Of a DNA stretch of 64,000 nt, positions 47,912 to 55,851 are shown piece by piece. The notes under the pieces are model-generated. The model did no database searches. It worked only from the letters and a program-made list of their open reading frames with translations, and was not told the DNA's origin. Each line of letters starts with the position of its first letter. Within the stretch, counting starts at the first letter, position 1. The position numbers and the translations under genes are program-made. The stretch lies in the NCBI RefSeq assembly GCF_014873145.1, contig NZ_JADBEK010000001.1, forward strand, positions 10,726,001-10,790,000. The letters are read 5' to 3'. The stretch comes from Nonomuraea angiospora. GTDB lineage: Bacteria > Actinomycetota > Actinomycetes > Streptosporangiales > Streptosporangiaceae.

Positions 47912-48904
47912 ATGAACGAGGGGGCGAAGAGGACGACCAGGAGCCCGGCGCAGGCGCTGTTCCGGCGGCTGTTCATGATCAACGGGCTGGTGTTCGCGGT
48001 GGCCACGGCCGTCCTCGCGGTCTCACCGGCCACCGTGTCCGCGCCCGTCGTGCTGGCCGAGGTGCCGGTGCTGATCGTGGGCCTGGCGCTGATGCTGGCC
48101 GCCAACGCGCTGCTCCTGCGCCGCAGCCTGGCCCCGCTGGACGCGCTGACCACGCTCATGCAGCGCGTGGACCTGCTGCGGACCGGTGAGCGGCTGCCCG
48201 ACGGCGGCAACAGCGACCTCACCCACGTGATCGCCACGTTCAACGCGATGCTCGACCGCCTGGAGGCCGAGCGCAGCGCCAGCAGCGGCCACGCCCTGGC
48301 CGCCCAGGAGGGCGAGCGGCGGCGCATCGCCCGCGAGCTGCACGACGAGATCGGCCAGAGCCTGACCGTGGTGCTCCTCGGCCTGAAGCGGGTGGTCGAC
48401 CGCGCGCCCGGCGACCTGCGCGAGGAGCTGCACGGCGTGCAGGAGACCGTGCGCGCCAGCCTCGACGAGGTGCGGCAGGTCGCCCGCCGGCTGCGCCCCG
48501 GCGTGCTGGAGGACCTCGGCCTGCACGCCGCCCTGAGCGCCCTGTGCAGCGACGTCTCGCAGATGAGCGGCGTCCAGGTGACCCGCGCCGTCCAGCACGA
48601 CCTGCCAGAGCTGGGCGAGGACGTCGAGCTCGTGCTGTACCGGATCGCCCAGGAGAGCCTCACGAACATCGCCAGGCACGCCCGCGCCACGCGTGCCGAG
48701 CTGTCGCTGGCCACGCACGACGGGCGGCTGACCCTGCGCGTCACCGACGACGGGCAGGGCGGCGCGCGCCAGGACGGGGCCGGGATCCGGGGCATGCGCG
48801 AGCGCGCCCTGCTGATCGGCGCCCGCCTGACCGTCGACTCCCCGCCGGGGGAGGGCACCCGCGTCCACCTGACCATCCCGAACGATCGGAGCCCAACGCG
48901 GTGA
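47912..48904 (+). CDS. NarL-type sensor histidine kinase
   Basis: 330 residues from ATG at 47912. Two transmembrane helices (about 20-42 and 50-70) with almost no extracytoplasmic loop, then a HAMP-like segment (SLAPLDALTTLMQRVDLL). HisKA_3: RRRIARELHDEIGQSLTVVLL with the phospho-acceptor His. HATPase_c: QESLTNIARHARAT (N-box), VTDDGQGG and GAGIRGMRERALLIG. All residues needed for activity are present. GTGA overlap with the cognate regulator. Confidence 0.92.
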   Translation: MNEGAKRTTRSPAQALFRRLFMINGLVFAVATAVLAVSPATVSAPVVLAEVPVLIVGLALMLAANALLLRRSLAPLDALTTLMQRVDLLRTGERLPDGGNSDLTHVIATFNAMLDRLEAERSASSGHALAAQEGERRRIARELHDEIGQSLTVVLLGLKRVVDRAPGDLREELHGVQETVRASLDEVRQVARRLRPGVLEDLGLHAALSALCSDVSQMSGVQVTRAVQHDLPELGEDVELVLYRIAQESLTNIARHARATRAELSLATHDGRLTLRVTDDGQGGARQDGAGIRGMRERALLIGARLTVDSPPGEGTRVHLTIPNDRSPTR

Positions 48905-49557
48905 GCACTGCCAAGACCAGGATCCTGCTGGCCGACGACCACGCGCTGGTCCGCCGGGGACTGAAGATGATCCTCGACGCGGAGCCCGACCTGGAGGTCG
49001 TCGCCGAGGCCGCCGACGGCGCGGAGGCCGTCACGGCCGCGTCGGAGGACGCGGTGGACCTGGCCATCCTGGACATCGCGATGCCGCGGATGACCGGGCT
49101 CCAGGCGGCCCGCGAGATCTCCCGCCGCGCGCCCGGCATCCGCATCCTGATCCTGTCCATGTACGACAACGAGCAGTACTTCTTCGAGGCCCTCAAGGTC
49201 GGCGCCTCGGGATACGTGCTCAAGTCGGTCGCCGACCAGGACCTGCTGGAGGCGTGCCGGGCCACGATGCGAGGCGAGCCGTTCCTGTATCCCGGGGCGG
49301 TCACCGCGCTCATCCGCGACTACCTGCAGCGCTCGCGCGAGGGCGAGCGCATGCCCGAGAGCATCCTGACGCCCCGGGAGGAGGAGATCGTCAAGCTGAT
49401 CGCGGAGGGCAACTCGGCCAAGGAGATCGCGGAGACGCTCGTCATCAGCGTGAAGACCGTGGACCGGCACCGGGCCAACATCCTGCAGAAGCTCGGCATG
49501 CGCGACCGCCTCGACCTGACCCGCTACGCCATCCGCGCGGGCCTCGTCGAGCCCTGA
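48901..49557 (+). CDS. NarL/FixJ-type response regulator
   Basis: 218 residues from GTG at 48901. Receiver: ILLADDHALVR, phospho-acceptor in LAILDIAMPRMTG, ILSMYDNEQYF, Lys in YVLKSVAD. LuxR HTH: LTPREEEIVKLIAEGNSAKE, IAETLVISVKTVDRHRANIL. A standard two-component partner for the preceding kinase. It ends 2 bp before the stop of the convergent NACHT gene. Confidence 0.93.
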   Translation: MSTAKTRILLADDHALVRRGLKMILDAEPDLEVVAEAADGAEAVTAASEDAVDLAILDIAMPRMTGLQAAREISRRAPGIRILILSMYDNEQYFFEALKVGASGYVLKSVADQDLLEACRATMRGEPFLYPGAVTALIRDYLQRSREGERMPESILTPREEEIVKLIAEGNSAKEIAETLVISVKTVDRHRANILQKLGMRDRLDLTRYAIRAGLVEP

Positions 49558-49559
49558 CG

Positions 49560-52500
49560 TTACAGGTCAGCGGGCCAACTCAGTCCATAGCGAGCGCCGT
49601 CTGCCATGATGACGCGCCGGGAATTGAGGAAGAGACGTCGATCCGCCTGGCGTAGCCTGTCCAGCCCCATCCTTGTGAGTACATTCGCGACCGCCAACTC
49701 GTCCCAGGGAACATCCGTAGCGGCGATTTCGAGCTCCATCAGGATGACGGCGACGCGTAGCCGGGCATAGGGCGACGGATCGACCTTGACGAGATCATGG
49801 ACGAGGCTTTTCTGCCGGGTGTCGCGCGCGATGAGGTCCGATACGCAATCGGCGATCGCATCGGCGTTCCGCTCACCCTTGATCAGTGGAATCAGCCGGC
49901 GGATCAGTGTGGCAGTAACTTCCGGCTCGATTTCTGGTATGTCCCGTGCGAGCAGGCGCAGGATGCTCCCGACGCAGTCGATGGCCGACTCATGGCCGTC
50001 CGGCATCGACAACTGCCGGAGCAGGTCTCGATATCCTGTGGCGACATCCGTGCGGCCATAGAGCAGGTTCTCCAGACAGTCGGCCAAGGGTTCCTTCCGC
50101 ATGACGATCCCCCGCTCGGGGATGCCGACGTTCTCACCCCTGTCACCGGCCAAGCCCAAGGATTCGTCCAGGAGAAACCGTTTCTCCATCCGCTCTATCT
50201 CGTGCTTTGCCGCCACATCATGCGCCCCAGTCGAATTGAGGGAGTCTGGGTCCGAGGAGAGCGACAACTCGCCGATCGACACCCGGACATCGTCCTCAGC
50301 GGCCTCGGAAGTCCTGCTCACACGGAAGAGCTGAAGATGGTTGAGCCATTCCTCCTTCAGCGCCGCGTGCTTCACAAGGTGTGCATGACGCTGCCACTCG
50401 TCGATCGGGTCGGTGCCGATCCCGAGTAACTCCCTGACGCTCACATACTCCGCGGTGGTCGCGCTCATGACGATCAGATTGGCCTCGTAGTATGCACTTC
50501 GCTTCGTCGTCATGAGCCGATTGGGCAGGTACTCGGCAAAACGATGATCGGTTCGATTGTCGCGTTGCTGGAACAGTCGCGTGACGAGTTTGTCGTAGGC
50601 GCCGGTGGTGCCAGCCATCTCCTTGAGGAAGCCGAGCACAGCCCGTCGACTGGACAGCAACGCGAACGAGGAGAGCGCGTAGAGCGGACCGTCCTGCGGC
50701 CGGTCGTCGCCGAACGGTCTCGCGGAGGCGGCGGCCTCGGCGCGCAACTGCTCGAGCACGTTGAAAAACAGGAAGGCGACGAGATATTCGGCGAAGGTGG
50801 CGTGCAGGAACTCGTACGTCGCGACCGGCTGCCCGTTCTGGACGGCCTTTGCCTCATGGATGAAGAAGAATCGTGCGATGATCTTCTCTGCCGGGCTGAG
50901 TGAGGCGCGGAAATCCGTGCTCGGCGACCTTCCGTCCTTCGGGAACCACACTTGCAGATCTTGATCGATCTCGTCTCGCGAGACCCATTGCCGGCGTCGG
51001 TTCATCATGGCGATGGCGACGATCGCCAGCCTCCTGAGCTCATAATCAACGGCCTCCTCCATTGCCTCGGCGGCCAGGTTGGAGTCTTTTTTGGCGATCT
51101 CCCTTTCCACGAAACGGGTCAGCACCCGGCGATAGAGCTCAGTCCGTGCGATGCACCCGGAGTCGAGCTGTAGCCCATTGGCATCGGCATCGTAGAGCGC
51201 GAGCATGAGCAGCAGTAAGGGCTCGGATGCCAGCTCTCTCTGAGACACCACATGCTCTGGGAGAAGCGGACGTAGCGCCCGACCTCGGAAATAGTTCTCG
51301 TTGACCGAATTCCAGGTCTCTATCCATGTGCTGATCTGTTCCGGATCGAAGGGTTCGAGCTGGACGGCGAGGAGGCCGTCGGGCAACCTGCACCAATTGG
51401 CGACGGCCGCGCGGGTGGTGACCACGGCTGCGACCGCACGGCCCTGGTCGCGTTCGCGTCGCTGGAAATCGGCCACCTTCTCGAGGAAGTCGCTCCTGTG
51501 CACCCCTGTGGCCTGGACTGCCTCGTCGAGCCCGTCGAAGAGCAGCACGGGCAGTATTCCTGAGTGTGCGGCGGAGCGTGCGAGGTTCGCCCAGTGGACG
51601 TTCTCGTGTGTCAACTGAGATACCGCGGCCTCGATCTGCATGTGCGGCTCGGCATCGGCCGGCACACTGCGCATCGAAATACAAATCGGCAGGAACTGGT
51701 TCGCCGGGAGCCGGGCAGCCAGAATCTGCATGAGCACCGACTTGCCTGAGCCGGGCTGGCCGAGAACGATCAGCGGAGCCGTTACGGCTCGCGGCGAGGT
51801 GAGGAATCCCGCGAGGAATTGTGGCAGGTTCTTCCGGACCTTGACGTTCTCCCACCACACTCTGGAACTGATGTCGGCCGGGGTCCCGGATTCGGTGACC
51901 TGGCGGATCCGGCGGGAGACGGCATGTCCGCCGCCGGGCTCGCAGACACGAAACCTCGGGTCCACGTACGCGGCCGAGAGCTTGGGTATTCGCAGATCTT
52001 CCGGCAGATCCCTCGCGGCATTGACCGGCCGGTCGAGTGCCGCCCTGTTCGCGTTGGTGATGCTCAGCAGTTGGTGGGCGGGAGCGATCCCGGATACGAG
52101 ATCCGAGAGCCTGTGCTCCAGTTCGGCCAGACCCGTGCGGATGACGTCCCGAGTTGCCTGATGGTGTCCAATATCGGCCCAAATGGAAAATTCTCGACAA
52201 TCGAGACTCAACTGTCGATACAGCTCTTGATAGCGAGCGCAGGCATAATCGGGAAGCTCGCCTATCAGGCGGAGCGGCACGTGACGCTGCGCTGTCTCGT
52301 CCAGATCCTCCCAGATTTTCAGGCCGCGAAGGAAGGTTGTGAGACTGGCGGCCACCGCGACGTAATGCCGCCGTATGATGTGGAGGTTCTCTTCGTAGGA
52401 CCGGTGCATCTCGGGCACCAAGACCTCAGCGTTCAGGATGTTGTCTCTGACCTTGTCCTTGCTCTTGGACCGGTTGCCGATTTCCACGATCTCTCTCCTG

Positions 52501-52832
52501 CTCAGGTCGAGTTGCTTCGCGGTGAACGGCAGGTCTACCTGGTCGATAGCCTCCAGAAACGCGGCGAGCACGATGATCGCGTGGGCTGCTTCCAGTCGTT
52601 GTGTGCGTGTGTATCGACCAAGGCCGCTGAGTTTGCCGCGCAGGTTGCTGACGAGTTCGTGGCACAGGCGTACGGCTTCTGCTTTGGCGTCTATCAGGCC
52701 GAGAGCAACGCTGAAGCCTGCGGCGGCGGCACCAAGGAGAGCCCCACCGACGATCTTGTCCAAGGCCTTGATCGTCGCGCTCTCTCCACCGAGTATGCGG
52801 AGCGCGTCCGCGTACGTGATCGATTTCGACAC
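49560..52832 (-). CDS. NACHT STAND NTPase with N-terminal helical domain (candidate anti-phage protein)
   Basis: 1090 residues from GTG at 52832, beginning VSKSITYADALRILGGES; the longer frame adds an unlikely 42-residue lead. Residues about 1-115 (DAKAEAVRLCHELVSNL, TRTQRLEAAHAIIVLAAFLE) look like the NACHT N-terminal helical domains (NNH7-like) of bacterial bNACHT proteins. NACHT core: Walker A VLGQPGSGKSVLM (about 358-365), Walker B ILPVLLFDGLDEA (about 430), sensor RTELYRRVLTRFVE and FLHATFAEYLVAFLFF. The last 400 residues are helical without recognised repeats and would be the sensor. A+T-rich codons are much more frequent than in neighbours, suggesting transfer. No second gene is coupled, fitting single-gene bNACHT defence. 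Confidence 0.82.
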   Translation of the reverse strand: MSKSITYADALRILGGESATIKALDKIVGGALLGAAAAGFSVALGLIDAKAEAVRLCHELVSNLRGKLSGLGRYTRTQRLEAAHAIIVLAAFLEAIDQVDLPFTAKQLDLSRREIVEIGNRSKSKDKVRDNILNAEVLVPEMHRSYEENLHIIRRHYVAVAASLTTFLRGLKIWEDLDETAQRHVPLRLIGELPDYACARYQELYRQLSLDCREFSIWADIGHHQATRDVIRTGLAELEHRLSDLVSGIAPAHQLLSITNANRAALDRPVNAARDLPEDLRIPKLSAAYVDPRFRVCEPGGGHAVSRRIRQVTESGTPADISSRVWWENVKVRKNLPQFLAGFLTSPRAVTAPLIVLGQPGSGKSVLMQILAARLPANQFLPICISMRSVPADAEPHMQIEAAVSQLTHENVHWANLARSAAHSGILPVLLFDGLDEAVQATGVHRSDFLEKVADFQRRERDQGRAVAAVVTTRAAVANWCRLPDGLLAVQLEPFDPEQISTWIETWNSVNENYFRGRALRPLLPEHVVSQRELASEPLLLLMLALYDADANGLQLDSGCIARTELYRRVLTRFVEREIAKKDSNLAAEAMEEAVDYELRRLAIVAIAMMNRRRQWVSRDEIDQDLQVWFPKDGRSPSTDFRASLSPAEKIIARFFFIHEAKAVQNGQPVATYEFLHATFAEYLVAFLFFNVLEQLRAEAAASARPFGDDRPQDGPLYALSSFALLSSRRAVLGFLKEMAGTTGAYDKLVTRLFQQRDNRTDHRFAEYLPNRLMTTKRSAYYEANLIVMSATTAEYVSVRELLGIGTDPIDEWQRHAHLVKHAALKEEWLNHLQLFRVSRTSEAAEDDVRVSIGELSLSSDPDSLNSTGAHDVAAKHEIERMEKRFLLDESLGLAGDRGENVGIPERGIVMRKEPLADCLENLLYGRTDVATGYRDLLRQLSMPDGHESAIDCVGSILRLLARDIPEIEPEVTATLIRRLIPLIKGERNADAIADCVSDLIARDTRQKSLVHDLVKVDPSPYARLRVAVILMELEIAATDVPWDELAVANVLTRMGLDRLRQADRRLFLNSRRVIMADGARYGLSWPADL

Positions 52833-53028
52833 AAGCTGATTATTGTGTGTCTTGGAGATGTTCGGTGGGTAATGCTGTGATCGACGCCCTAGCTTGAGGC
52901 GATAAATTAATGGGCTTTTGTCCATATAGGTCACGAAATGGGATCTCGTGGTGGACAAGTGGGCCGCCTCGCCCGGCTTGGACCACTCCTCGCGCTGTGG
53001 GAGCGAGTAGTGGCCCTGTGCCCGGGGA

Positions 53029-55851
53029 TCAGAGCATGCGCTGGATGACCTGCGGCGTGGCCGGCACGTCGTCGTTCTCGATGGAGTGCCGCTCCTCGGC
53101 GGTGATCAGGCCGAGGCCGTGCAGGATGGCGGCCGCCCTGCGCCAGAGCCGGCGGGCCTCGTCGCACTCGCCGCTCTCGCTCAGCGCGTGCCCGAGCCCC
53201 CAGAGGCTCTCCGCCTCGACGTAGTCGCCGCCGTGGCCCGCGGCCCGGTAGCGGGCCAGCGCCTCGCGGTGGTGCGCGACCGCCCGGGCGGGGTCGCCGG
53301 CCAGCCGGTACGCCTCCGCGAGGTTGGCCAGGGCGGTCACCGCGTCGAGCGCCGCGCCCGTCTCCTCCAGGATCGCGACCGATCGCACGCCGGCCTCGAC
53401 GGCCTCGGCGAACCGCCCGGCCCGCTGGTAGACCAGCCCGAGATGGGTGAGGATGGCGCCCTGCCCGTAGCGGTCGTCCATGAGCGCGATGGCCTGCCGA
53501 TGATGGTCGGCGGCCTCGTCGAAGCGGCCCGCCCCGCGGTAGGCGATGCCGAGGTGGTCGAGCAGGGCGGCCGCGCGGCGCTTGTTCCCCAGCCGCCGGT
53601 GGATGGCCAGCGAACGGTTCATGTGGGCGATGCCGACGATCTGGTTGCCCACGCACACGTGCGCCCAGCCGAGGTCGCCCAGGACCACGGCCTCGTCGAA
53701 CGGCTCCGCGGTGTGCTCGGCGGCCCGCAACGCGGCTTCGCTGAGAGCCAGCAGCCCGCGCCAGCGGCCCGTGGAATAGAGCGGGACCGCGAACGTCACC
53801 GCCAGCGCGACCCCGAGCCCGGCCGCGGGCGTGCCGCGCGTCTGGCCGACGGCCGCGAGCAGGTTGTCCTCCTCGGCGTCGACCCAGGCCCGCAGGTCCT
53901 CGTTCGTCTCCAGCGCCAGCCCGGGACGCGTGAGGGAGCTCGGGCCGACCTCGTTGCGCCACGTGTAGGCCGGCTTCAGCATCTCGATCGCCGTGCGCGC
54001 GGTGGCCAGGTGGTGGTGCAGCGCGCGCTCCACGGCCAGCCGCCTGGCCGGCTCGCTCTCCTCCTCCGCCGCCCGCTCGCGGGCGAACAGCCGCAGCAGG
54101 TCGTGCAGGTCGTAGCGGTCGGGGGCGCGTTCCTGCACGAGCCGCGCGTCCACCAGCAGGTCGAGCAGGCGCTGGGCGCGTTCCTCGGGCAGGCCGGCCA
54201 GCGCGGCGGCCGTGGGCAGGCCGAGATCGGGGCCGTCCAGCAGGCCGAGCAGCCGGAACATCCGCGCCGCCGCGATCCCGTCGGCGTCGGACTTCAGCTC
54301 CTGGTAGCCGGCCTGGAAGCTGGCGCGCAGCCCCCGGTCGTCGGCCCGCAGCTCGTCGAGGCGGCGGTGGGCGGAGGCCAGCCGCCCGGCCAGCGCCGAC
54401 ACCTGCCACGACGGGCGGGCCCGCAGCCGGGCCGCGGCCAGGCAGAGCGCCAGCGGCAGGCCGCCGCACAGCCGGACCACCTCGGCCGCGGCGGCGGGCT
54501 CGGCGGCGATCCGCCCGTCGCCGACGATGCCGCCCAGCAGGGCCAGGGCGTCGCCGTTGGGCAGCACGTCCAGCGACACCTGCGTGGCGCCGTCGAACGA
54601 GGCGAGCATCCGGCGGCTGGTGACCAGCACGGCGCACGTCGGACTGCCGGGGAGCAGGGGCCGCACCTGCGCGGCGTCCCTGGCGTTGTCGAGGATGACG
54701 AGCATCCTCCTGCCGACGGTCAGCGACCGGAACCGGCCCGCGGCCTCCTCCAGGTCCGTGGGCACCGCCGACCCGGCCACGCCCAGCGAGCGCAGGAACC
54801 GCCCGAGCGCCTCGACCGGATCGACGGGGACGACCTGCGGCGAGGCGCCGTGCAGGTCCACGTAGAGCTGGCCGTCGGGGTAGCGGCCGGCCAGCGCGTG
54901 GGCGACGTGGATGGCCAGGGAGGACTTGCCGACGCCGCCGATGCCGCTGATCTGGCAGATCCGCACCGCGCCCGGCCCGTCGCCGGCCAGCGCCGCGCTC
55001 ACCCGCGCCACCTCCTCGGCCCGCCCGGTGAACGACGCCGGCGCGGCGGGCAGCTCCGCCGGCACCGCGGCCGGGGGCGGGCCGGCGGACACCGGCGCCG
55101 CCGGCGGCTCGGCGTCCGGCTCCTCGCGCAGGATGCGCTGGTGCAGCTCCTGCAGCTCGCCGCCCGGCTCGACGCCCAGCCCGTCGACGAGCCGCCGCCT
55201 GGCGTCGCGGTACACCTCCAGGGCGGCGGCCCTGCGCCCGTCCTGGTGCAGCGCCGCCATCATCAGGTACGCCAGCCGCTCCCGCAGCGGATGCTCGCCG
55301 ATCAGCACCGGCAGCTCGGCCAGCGGCTCCCGGCACAGCCCGAGACGCAGGTCGGCCGCGATGCGCTCCTCGACGGCCGCGAGCCGCTCCTCCTCCAGCG
55401 GCCCGCCGAACGTCTCACGCAACCACTCGCCGGCGACCCCGGCCAGCGGCGGCCCGCTCCACAGCTCCAGCGCCCGCCGCAGCAGCGGGCCCGCCTCGTC
55501 CTGGCCGCCCGCCCGCGCCCGCTCGACCAGGTGGCGCGAGAGGTAGAGGTCGACCCGCAGCGGATCGAGGTCGAGCCGGTAGCCGGGCGAGGAGGTGACC
55601 AGCTCGACGCCGGGGATCCCGGCCAGGACCCGGCGCAGCCGCGACACGTACCCCTGGATGGCGTTGCGGGCCGACGGCGGCGGCTCCTGGTCCCACACGG
55701 CCTCCACCAGCCGGTCGAGTGGCACCGTGCGGCCCGGGTGGAGCAGCAGCATGGCCAGCACCGAGCGCTGCTGCGCGGTCGAAGGCCCCAGTGACCTGCC
55801 GCCCGACCAGATCCCCACCGGCCCCAGCAGCCGGAACTCCGCACCGTCCAA
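53029..55851 (-). CDS. SARP/AfsR-type regulator with NB-ARC and TPR domains
   Basis: 940 residues from ATG at 55851. N-terminal winged helix (about 5-95: EFRLLGPVGIWSGGRSLGP, VPLDRLVEAVWDQEPPPS, YVSRLRRVL), BTAD domain (about 100-245), NB-ARC ATPase (P-loop ISGIGGVGKSSLA near 301-309; Walker B RRMLVILDNARDAAQV; RLCGGLPLALCLAAARL), winged linker, and a TPR array in the last 280 residues (YRGAGRFDEAADHHRQAIAL-type units). AfsR-type proteins activate antibiotic or developmental genes. No biosynthetic cluster is visible in the window. Confidence 0.92.
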   Translation of the reverse strand: MDGAEFRLLGPVGIWSGGRSLGPSTAQQRSVLAMLLLHPGRTVPLDRLVEAVWDQEPPPSARNAIQGYVSRLRRVLAGIPGVELVTSSPGYRLDLDPLRVDLYLSRHLVERARAGGQDEAGPLLRRALELWSGPPLAGVAGEWLRETFGGPLEEERLAAVEERIAADLRLGLCREPLAELPVLIGEHPLRERLAYLMMAALHQDGRRAAALEVYRDARRRLVDGLGVEPGGELQELHQRILREEPDAEPPAAPVSAGPPPAAVPAELPAAPASFTGRAEEVARVSAALAGDGPGAVRICQISGIGGVGKSSLAIHVAHALAGRYPDGQLYVDLHGASPQVVPVDPVEALGRFLRSLGVAGSAVPTDLEEAAGRFRSLTVGRRMLVILDNARDAAQVRPLLPGSPTCAVLVTSRRMLASFDGATQVSLDVLPNGDALALLGGIVGDGRIAAEPAAAAEVVRLCGGLPLALCLAAARLRARPSWQVSALAGRLASAHRRLDELRADDRGLRASFQAGYQELKSDADGIAAARMFRLLGLLDGPDLGLPTAAALAGLPEERAQRLLDLLVDARLVQERAPDRYDLHDLLRLFARERAAEEESEPARRLAVERALHHHLATARTAIEMLKPAYTWRNEVGPSSLTRPGLALETNEDLRAWVDAEEDNLLAAVGQTRGTPAAGLGVALAVTFAVPLYSTGRWRGLLALSEAALRAAEHTAEPFDEAVVLGDLGWAHVCVGNQIVGIAHMNRSLAIHRRLGNKRRAAALLDHLGIAYRGAGRFDEAADHHRQAIALMDDRYGQGAILTHLGLVYQRAGRFAEAVEAGVRSVAILEETGAALDAVTALANLAEAYRLAGDPARAVAHHREALARYRAAGHGGDYVEAESLWGLGHALSESGECDEARRLWRRAAAILHGLGLITAEERHSIENDDVPATPQVIQRML

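Follow-up and report, generated by a model that had tools for sequence, protein, structure and literature searches.

Within a 64,000-nucleotide stretch of the Nonomuraea angiospora genome (contig NZ_JADBEK010000001.1, positions 10,726,001 to 10,790,000; hereafter the window), we examined one minus-strand gene that encodes an NNH7-NACHT protein (Table 1). The host is a soil actinomycete, and its genome measures 13.09 Mb in a single contig. On the plus strand, a histidine kinase and a LuxR-type response regulator are convergent with the gene, and beyond its start lies a regulator with BTAD, NB-ARC and TPR domains, which we take to be of the SARP type. A preliminary description of the window had placed the gene alone between a two-component system and a SARP gene, and the identification of these neighbours bears this out; the gene has no operon partner. 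The motifs listed in that description (GQPGSGKS, LLFDGLDEA, FLHATFAEYLVA and an N-terminus that reads VSKSITYADALRILGGES) were all located in the minus-strand open reading frame (ORF). The gene is intact, with no internal stops. Its GTG start coincides in alignment with the start codon (ATG) of P0003, the closest homologue, and a possible alternative TTG start at 52958 has no support. The gene carries two TTA codons (aa 539 and aa 802), which are rare in such genomes and which we presume could make it dependent on the bldA leucine tRNA.

Table 1. Features of the NNH7-NACHT locus, with the tandem pairs found in relatives
Feature	Position	Strand	Basis or remark
LuxR-type response-regulator ORF (flank)	48544..49557	+	Response_reg and GerE; start probably ~48.9 kb; 216-aa equivalent in L029
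Segment of 3,469 bp missing from sister genome G022	49558..53026	.	blastn to L024; ambiguous 2-bp 'GA' at both junctions
NNH7-NACHT gene	49560..52832	-	1090 aa; GTG start at 52832, stop at 49560; open frame
C-terminal helical domain, aa ~862-1090, candidate sensor	49563..50249	-	helices in AF2 model
NLR-type module NBD-HD1-WHD-HD2, aa ~247-861	50250..52094	-	modelled fold
WHD motif FLHATFAEYLVA, aa 675-686	50775..50810	-	sequence
Walker B LLFDGLDEA, aa 430-438	51519..51545	-	sequence
Walker A GQPGSGKS, aa 358-365	51738..51761	-	sequence
NNH7 N-terminal helical domain, aa 1-223, predicted effector or adaptor	52164..52832	-	PF22738, aa 3-221
Upstream region carried with the gene	52833..53026	-	AT-rich proximal half GC 0.45; distal half GC 0.68
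BTAD-NB-ARC-TPR regulator, SARP type (flank)	53029..55851	-	domain scan
Tandem pairs in relatives	L155-L162, about 3-10.6 kb of each	same strand	fast-evolving canonical gene 1, then conserved gene 2

The N-terminal part matches the Pfam NNH7 family with an E-value of 7e-72 and 242.7 bits against a curated cut-off of 27, so that the NNH-like N-terminus proposed earlier is upheld by a profile search; AlphaFold2 (AF2) models this piece as helical (pLDDT, the predicted local distance difference test, 76.5). The central part is an NLR module. When residues 247-861 were modelled with AlphaFold, the fold matched those of NLRC4, NOD2 and NLRP3 over the whole module, and the 17 Foldseek matches at E ≤ 0.001 were without exception NLR or STAND chains (16 NLR and one STAND-TPR). 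The Pfam NACHT model scored only 22.7 bits, below its cut-off of 26.7, but the NNH7 paralogues scanned also fall below that cut-off, and the shortfall is therefore a weakness of the model for the NNH7 family and not of the protein. Thus, the claim of a NACHT STAND NTPase stands on the modelled fold and the switch residues, though not on the Pfam profile, and we regard the NACHT assignment as settled because the fold matches those of NLRs. In 38 aligned homologues there is no variation at G358, P360, G361, G363, K364 and S365 of Walker A, at D433, G434, D436 and E437 of Walker B, or at F675, L676, H677, T679, F680 and E682 of the WHD motif. The switch set is likewise invariant in 38 proteins: K364, D436/E437, R474 (sensor arginine), P538 (HD1 proline) and H677 (WHD histidine), the last of which we take, by recall from NLRC4 and NLRP3, to be the expected ADP-binding residue. 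The protein belongs to the NNH7-type bacterial NACHT proteins. The C-terminal ~400 residues, previously treated as one block, are not one: as far as ~861 they belong to the WHD and HD2, and only the remainder forms a separate helical domain.

Other searches added little. A PDB sequence search with the single protein or the A1 profile returned chance P-loop matches only, and a PDB structure search gave no fold relative of NNH7 among the matches listed, an absence that is not proof. The Pfam scan of the protein found no DNA-binding domain, and Pfam, PADLOC and NCBIfam supplied no effector or sensor name other than NNH7. The conserved R79...H84 suggested a HEPN-like reading, which was dropped: the spacing alone is weak, and no HEPN protein was among the fold matches listed.

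The base composition of the gene differs sharply from that of its surroundings. In 1-kb intervals lying mostly inside the gene, GC content is 0.593-0.632, compared with 0.715-0.778 in the intervals directly adjoining; the lowest value elsewhere between 40 and 64 kb is 0.667. GC content at third codon positions (GC3) is 0.760 for the gene and 0.961 ± 0.017 (minimum 0.921) for 36 other window ORFs (z -11.7), a set that was hand-picked from one ORF caller, that is flattered because the caller itself uses codon-position GC, and that does not include the adjoining kinase and regulator because the caller muddled them. The lower GC content reported earlier is therefore confirmed by the GC3 comparison.

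In the sister genome G022, the gene is missing together with 2 bases past its stop and ~194 bases upstream. In blastn alignments with the G022 locus (L024), homology stops at 49557 (96.7% identity, 10,597 columns) and restarts at 53027 (96.1%, 5,010 columns), and at the protein level the G022 neighbours are 99% (citrate transporter) and 95% (SARP) identical. At this empty site, the stop codon of the response regulator (TGA) directly abuts that of the SARP gene (TCA on the plus strand). The single G022 match to the window protein is a core-type copy (see below) that is 36% identical. Inspection of the segment revealed no integrase, transposase or repeat, its ends bear no terminal inverted or direct repeats of 8 bases, and no mobility gene was found adjoining the NNH7-NACHT gene. 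Comparison of the locus in relatives thus upholds the earlier suggestion of acquisition: with an empty site in G022 and an outlying GC3, it is well supported that the gene was acquired as a lone unit, apparently not long ago. The upstream 230 bp has short matches only, in 14 other genomes, and its RNA fold is no better than that of shuffled sequences (z -1.08). Positions 52948-52983 resemble the last 11 residues (SKPVGAAHLST) of the L148 protein (blastx E 0.003), the product of a neighbouring-type gene that we take to be DUF6766; the resemblance may be left over from the donor locus or be fortuitous, and so short a stretch does not identify a donor.

NNH7 proteins are common in the order and rare in a wider sample of the phylum. 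Some match to the window protein is present in 49 of the 54 Nonomuraea genomes sampled, and of 249 genomes from the order, 132 have NNH7, compared with 3 of 396 in a phylum sample (own genome counted; at most 7 candidates scored per genome) and none of 14 control genomes. Named relatives are filamentous-type actinomycetes. Within the genus, a core-type copy (≥700 bits with the core query) occurs in 43 of 54 genomes and accessory copies in about 30 of 54, the latter count reflecting our interpretation of the match table. Core-type copies have short branches in the tree, and in 13 of 14 loci (L034:7965-10823 and its equivalents in L035-L047) their immediate upstream neighbour is an AMP-binding, acetyl-CoA-synthetase-like gene, the fourteenth being lost to a mis-called reverse ORF. 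Accessory copies occupy some shared positions (six loci at one, five at another) and others that are unique, and in the species pair G016/G036 they are 70% identical, compared with 86% for the core copies. The accessory clade that holds the window gene also comprises P0003 and P0004 and, branching next, P0007 (Nonomuraea), Microbispora and Planobispora; every fork is starred except that of Planobispora (81). The host genome has a fourth NNH7 match (L004, G000:C1:3600178-3600621), which is partial, contains an in-frame TGA and is apparently a decayed copy. The frames called in L050, L055 and L058 run to 1479-2362 aa, far above the family norm, and represent either extra domains or over-called ends.

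Among the 28 commonest neighbour clusters of the 113 NNH7 loci compared, no partner gene is shared across the family; these clusters are genus-level neighbourhoods. Counting against the absence of a partner, the window gene's wider clade has a recurrent MerR-like gene (7 loci) and a gene for what is presumably an S-adenosylmethionine (SAM) methyltransferase (7 loci). These recur beside NNH7 genes in L069, L071, L072, L074, L088, L112 and others; the window locus has neither within the stretch examined.

The two ends of the protein diverge fastest in relatives. We compared nonsynonymous divergence (dN) in 23 hand-chosen pairs (17 accessory-type and 6 core), none of which includes the window gene; the pairs partly overlap, and 13 share no member. 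The dN of the C-terminus exceeded that of the middle and NACHT regions in 23 of 23 pairs, as it did in all 13 non-overlapping ones. Among the accessory-type pairs, this ratio was 1.9-11 (median 3.8), and the dN of NNH7 was also higher than that of the middle and NACHT regions in 16 of 17. The ratio of dN to synonymous divergence (dN/dS) exceeded 1 in no region, with a maximum of 0.96 (C-terminus, L084/L085). The tail therefore evolves fast, and dN/dS does not demonstrate positive selection. The C-terminus was found in 9 of 119 homologues besides two copies of the window protein itself, and a profile search matched it weakly in 82 of 268 NNH7 entries, 11 training rows included. Given these weak matches in other NNH7 proteins, the C-terminus is not an entirely new sensor; in relatives it is the fastest-diverging part.

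What might such a protein do? A 2023 paper in Cell reportedly concerns bacterial NLR-related proteins. The part of a study of bNACHT proteins available to us describes them as tripartite, with C-terminal sensing, NACHT oligomerization and an N-terminal effector (PMC12169576), and this logic may carry over to the window protein by analogy. In computed support, the protein has an NNH7 head, an NLR-type module with its switch residues and a separate helical C-terminus; its gene was acquired alone, and head and tail are fast in relatives. We consider it probable that the gene encodes a single-gene NLR-like receptor with an anti-invader, probably abortive, function. Its most likely role would be that of a one-gene alarm, causing cell death or arrest on detection of a phage or of some other invader, and an anti-phage function is the best inference. 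The resting protein would be a monomer that holds ADP and inhibits itself. An invader product or an invader-induced change in the host would be recognized by the C-terminal helical domain, ADP would be swapped for ATP, and the NACHT modules would build a ring-like oligomer. The clustered NNH7 heads could then set off cell arrest or death ahead of the spread of the invader, as in abortive infection.

Comparison with known proteins places the window protein near several systems. P0003, a PF22738 NNH7-NACHT protein of the actinomycete Nonomuraea sp. NPDC049421, has the same end-to-end architecture and is 54% identical over the full length (NNH7 66%, NACHT core 67%, C-terminus about 26-39%); the window gene is set apart from it by its very low GC3. 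Animal NLRC4, NOD2 and NLRP3 share the modelled fold of the NLR module, whereas the window protein has no CARD or PYD by Pfam and no LRR, but an NNH7 head and a short helical tail instead. The structural match to Avs4 (AVAST) is weaker than those to NLRs, and PADLOC gave no Avs family match. The protective bNACHT02 and bNACHT12 (SNaCT type) and bNACHT25 and bNACHT32 (nuclease plus NCH1) are likewise described, in the part of the source available, as single-gene tripartite NACHT proteins (PMC12169576). The preliminary description went too far in calling NNH-type N-termini known anti-phage: this is not established for NNH7, the protective proteins in that part of the source carry SNaCT or NCH1, and the Pfam scan of the window protein found NNH7 without nuclease, SNaCT or NCH1 (Pfam coverage of the last two being unchecked). 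The anti-phage protein DS-8 also has a NACHT domain, according to the portion of its report available to us (PMC13092281); its model, NCBIfam NF053861, touches residues 354-456 (E 0.043, 11.5 bits against a cut-off of 790), but the Pfam scan of the window protein found no metallophosphatase domain. Literature searches found no paper on NNH7, the string 'NNH7' matching unrelated subjects among the results listed, and no match for 'NACHT N-terminal helical'; the main text of a paper on antiviral defences in Actinobacteria (PMC10482375) does not contain the words NACHT, NLR, Avs or STAND.

Several observations weigh against a defence function. There is no convincing defence family match in PADLOC (best E 0.019) or NCBIfam (best E 0.043). 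Ten flanking ORFs were scanned without finding a defence gene, so that no defence island supports the reading. The IMG/VR scan and a set of 50,697 phage records yielded no copy, and of 72,556 plasmid records only five match: three large Streptomyces plasmids over 76-78% of the query, another over 10%, and a Nonomuraea gerenzanensis record of 11.85 Mb that looks like a chromosome. No chromosome-borne mobile carrier was found either. Moreover, the positions of several NNH7 genes are stable at the level of the genus, which is not what a typical mobile defence gene would show. The dN evidence comes from relatives, in a comparison that holds no close DNA relative of the window gene, and the C-terminus is fastest in 6 of 6 core pairs too; tail divergence alone is therefore no proof of sensing. 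Besides the core-type site, a second stable position, close to genes of TetR, ABC-transporter and AurF-like type, is occupied by the fast-evolving NNH7 genes of L049, L052, L060, L061, L063 and L066.

How would the head kill? HeLo and CC four-helix heads attack membranes, and by analogy the NNH7 head might permeabilize the membrane, an idea we hold only tentatively. A hydrophobic, Gly/Ala-rich stretch at aa 27-45 has the highest Kyte-Doolittle value in the protein (1.85), but of 232 family members only 43% attain 1.6 in this stretch and 88 have their maximum there, model confidence over it is below 50, and NNH7 has no PDB fold match.

It is also conceivable, though rather doubtful, that the protein governs regulated cell death or self/non-self control that is not phage-specific, such as hyphal incompatibility, plasmid or conjugation surveillance, or development in a multicellular bacterium. 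The filamentous relatives, the rarity of NNH7 in the phylum sample and the slow core-type copy beside its acetyl-CoA-synthetase-like neighbour all fit this view, and STAND systems have been tied to multicellular prokaryotes in the sections available of two eLife papers (2020, PMC7159879; 2021, PMC8195603). However, the window copy is accessory and foreign in composition, and this fits development less well than it fits defence.

The difference between the two genomes might also reflect a loss in G022. The junction of response regulator and SARP gene occurs in only two compared loci, and in five other genomes with the response-regulator region a different gene follows the regulator; there is thus no outgroup to settle gain versus loss. 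That G022 deleted the segment is nevertheless unlikely: the GC3 is foreign to the host, which favours gain, and the two directly abutting stop codons form a junction tidier than a random deletion would leave. Very improbable is a STAND switch that regulates its neighbours, since, although the gene is flanked by regulators, one of which, the SARP neighbour, is a STAND protein in its own right (NB-ARC), the sister genome retains both neighbours without it, the Pfam scan shows no DNA-binding domain, and the gene is convergent with the response regulator and apparently has its own upstream region.

Does the presumed receptor act alone? In at least 15 of the 132 NNH7-bearing genomes of the order, two NNH7 domains lie within about 3.6 kb on the same strand. 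We fetched 14 such tandem loci, all outside the window: six hold two canonical copies, and eight (L155-L162, all from the same taxonomic family as the window genome) hold a canonical gene 1 and an altered gene 2. Gene 2 encodes ~975 aa, with DGLEE or DGVEE (two examples aligned) in place of DGxDE in Walker B and an eroded WHD motif, read as FTDPVLGDYL or FSHPSLGEYL. Mean pairwise identity is 0.81 in the last block of gene 2; the values for the final two blocks of gene 1 are 0.40-0.41. The gene 2s form one clade (100/100) and the gene 1s another (98/94), and inner branching matches between them for L162, for L155 and for the group L158-L161; L156 and L157 are sisters among the gene 2s only. Separate clades with largely mirrored branching indicate that gene 1 and gene 2 were inherited together. 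One possible, still speculative, view is that NNH7-NACHT genes make up an NLR-like repertoire of filamentous actinomycetes that includes true sensor/helper pairs, with lone copies as accessory sensors that act alone or borrow a helper. Strict dependence on a core helper within the genus was considered and is unsupported, as the core copy is not intact in 5 of 30 accessory-bearing genomes (G014, G038, G051, G032, which is incomplete, and G015, where it is broken) versus 5 of 24 accessory-free ones, as we interpret the match table.

Altogether, the locus provides a clear-cut actinomycete analogue of NLRs that consists of one gene and lends itself to testing, and two naturally occurring strains, 96-97% identical in the flanks, differ in whether they carry it. 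Should NNH7 prove to be the executioner, the bacterial NLR set would gain an N-terminal effector of no recognized fold. Moreover, if the tandem pairs work as sensor and helper, the paired NLR logic of plants and animals would gain a bacterial counterpart open to simple genetics.

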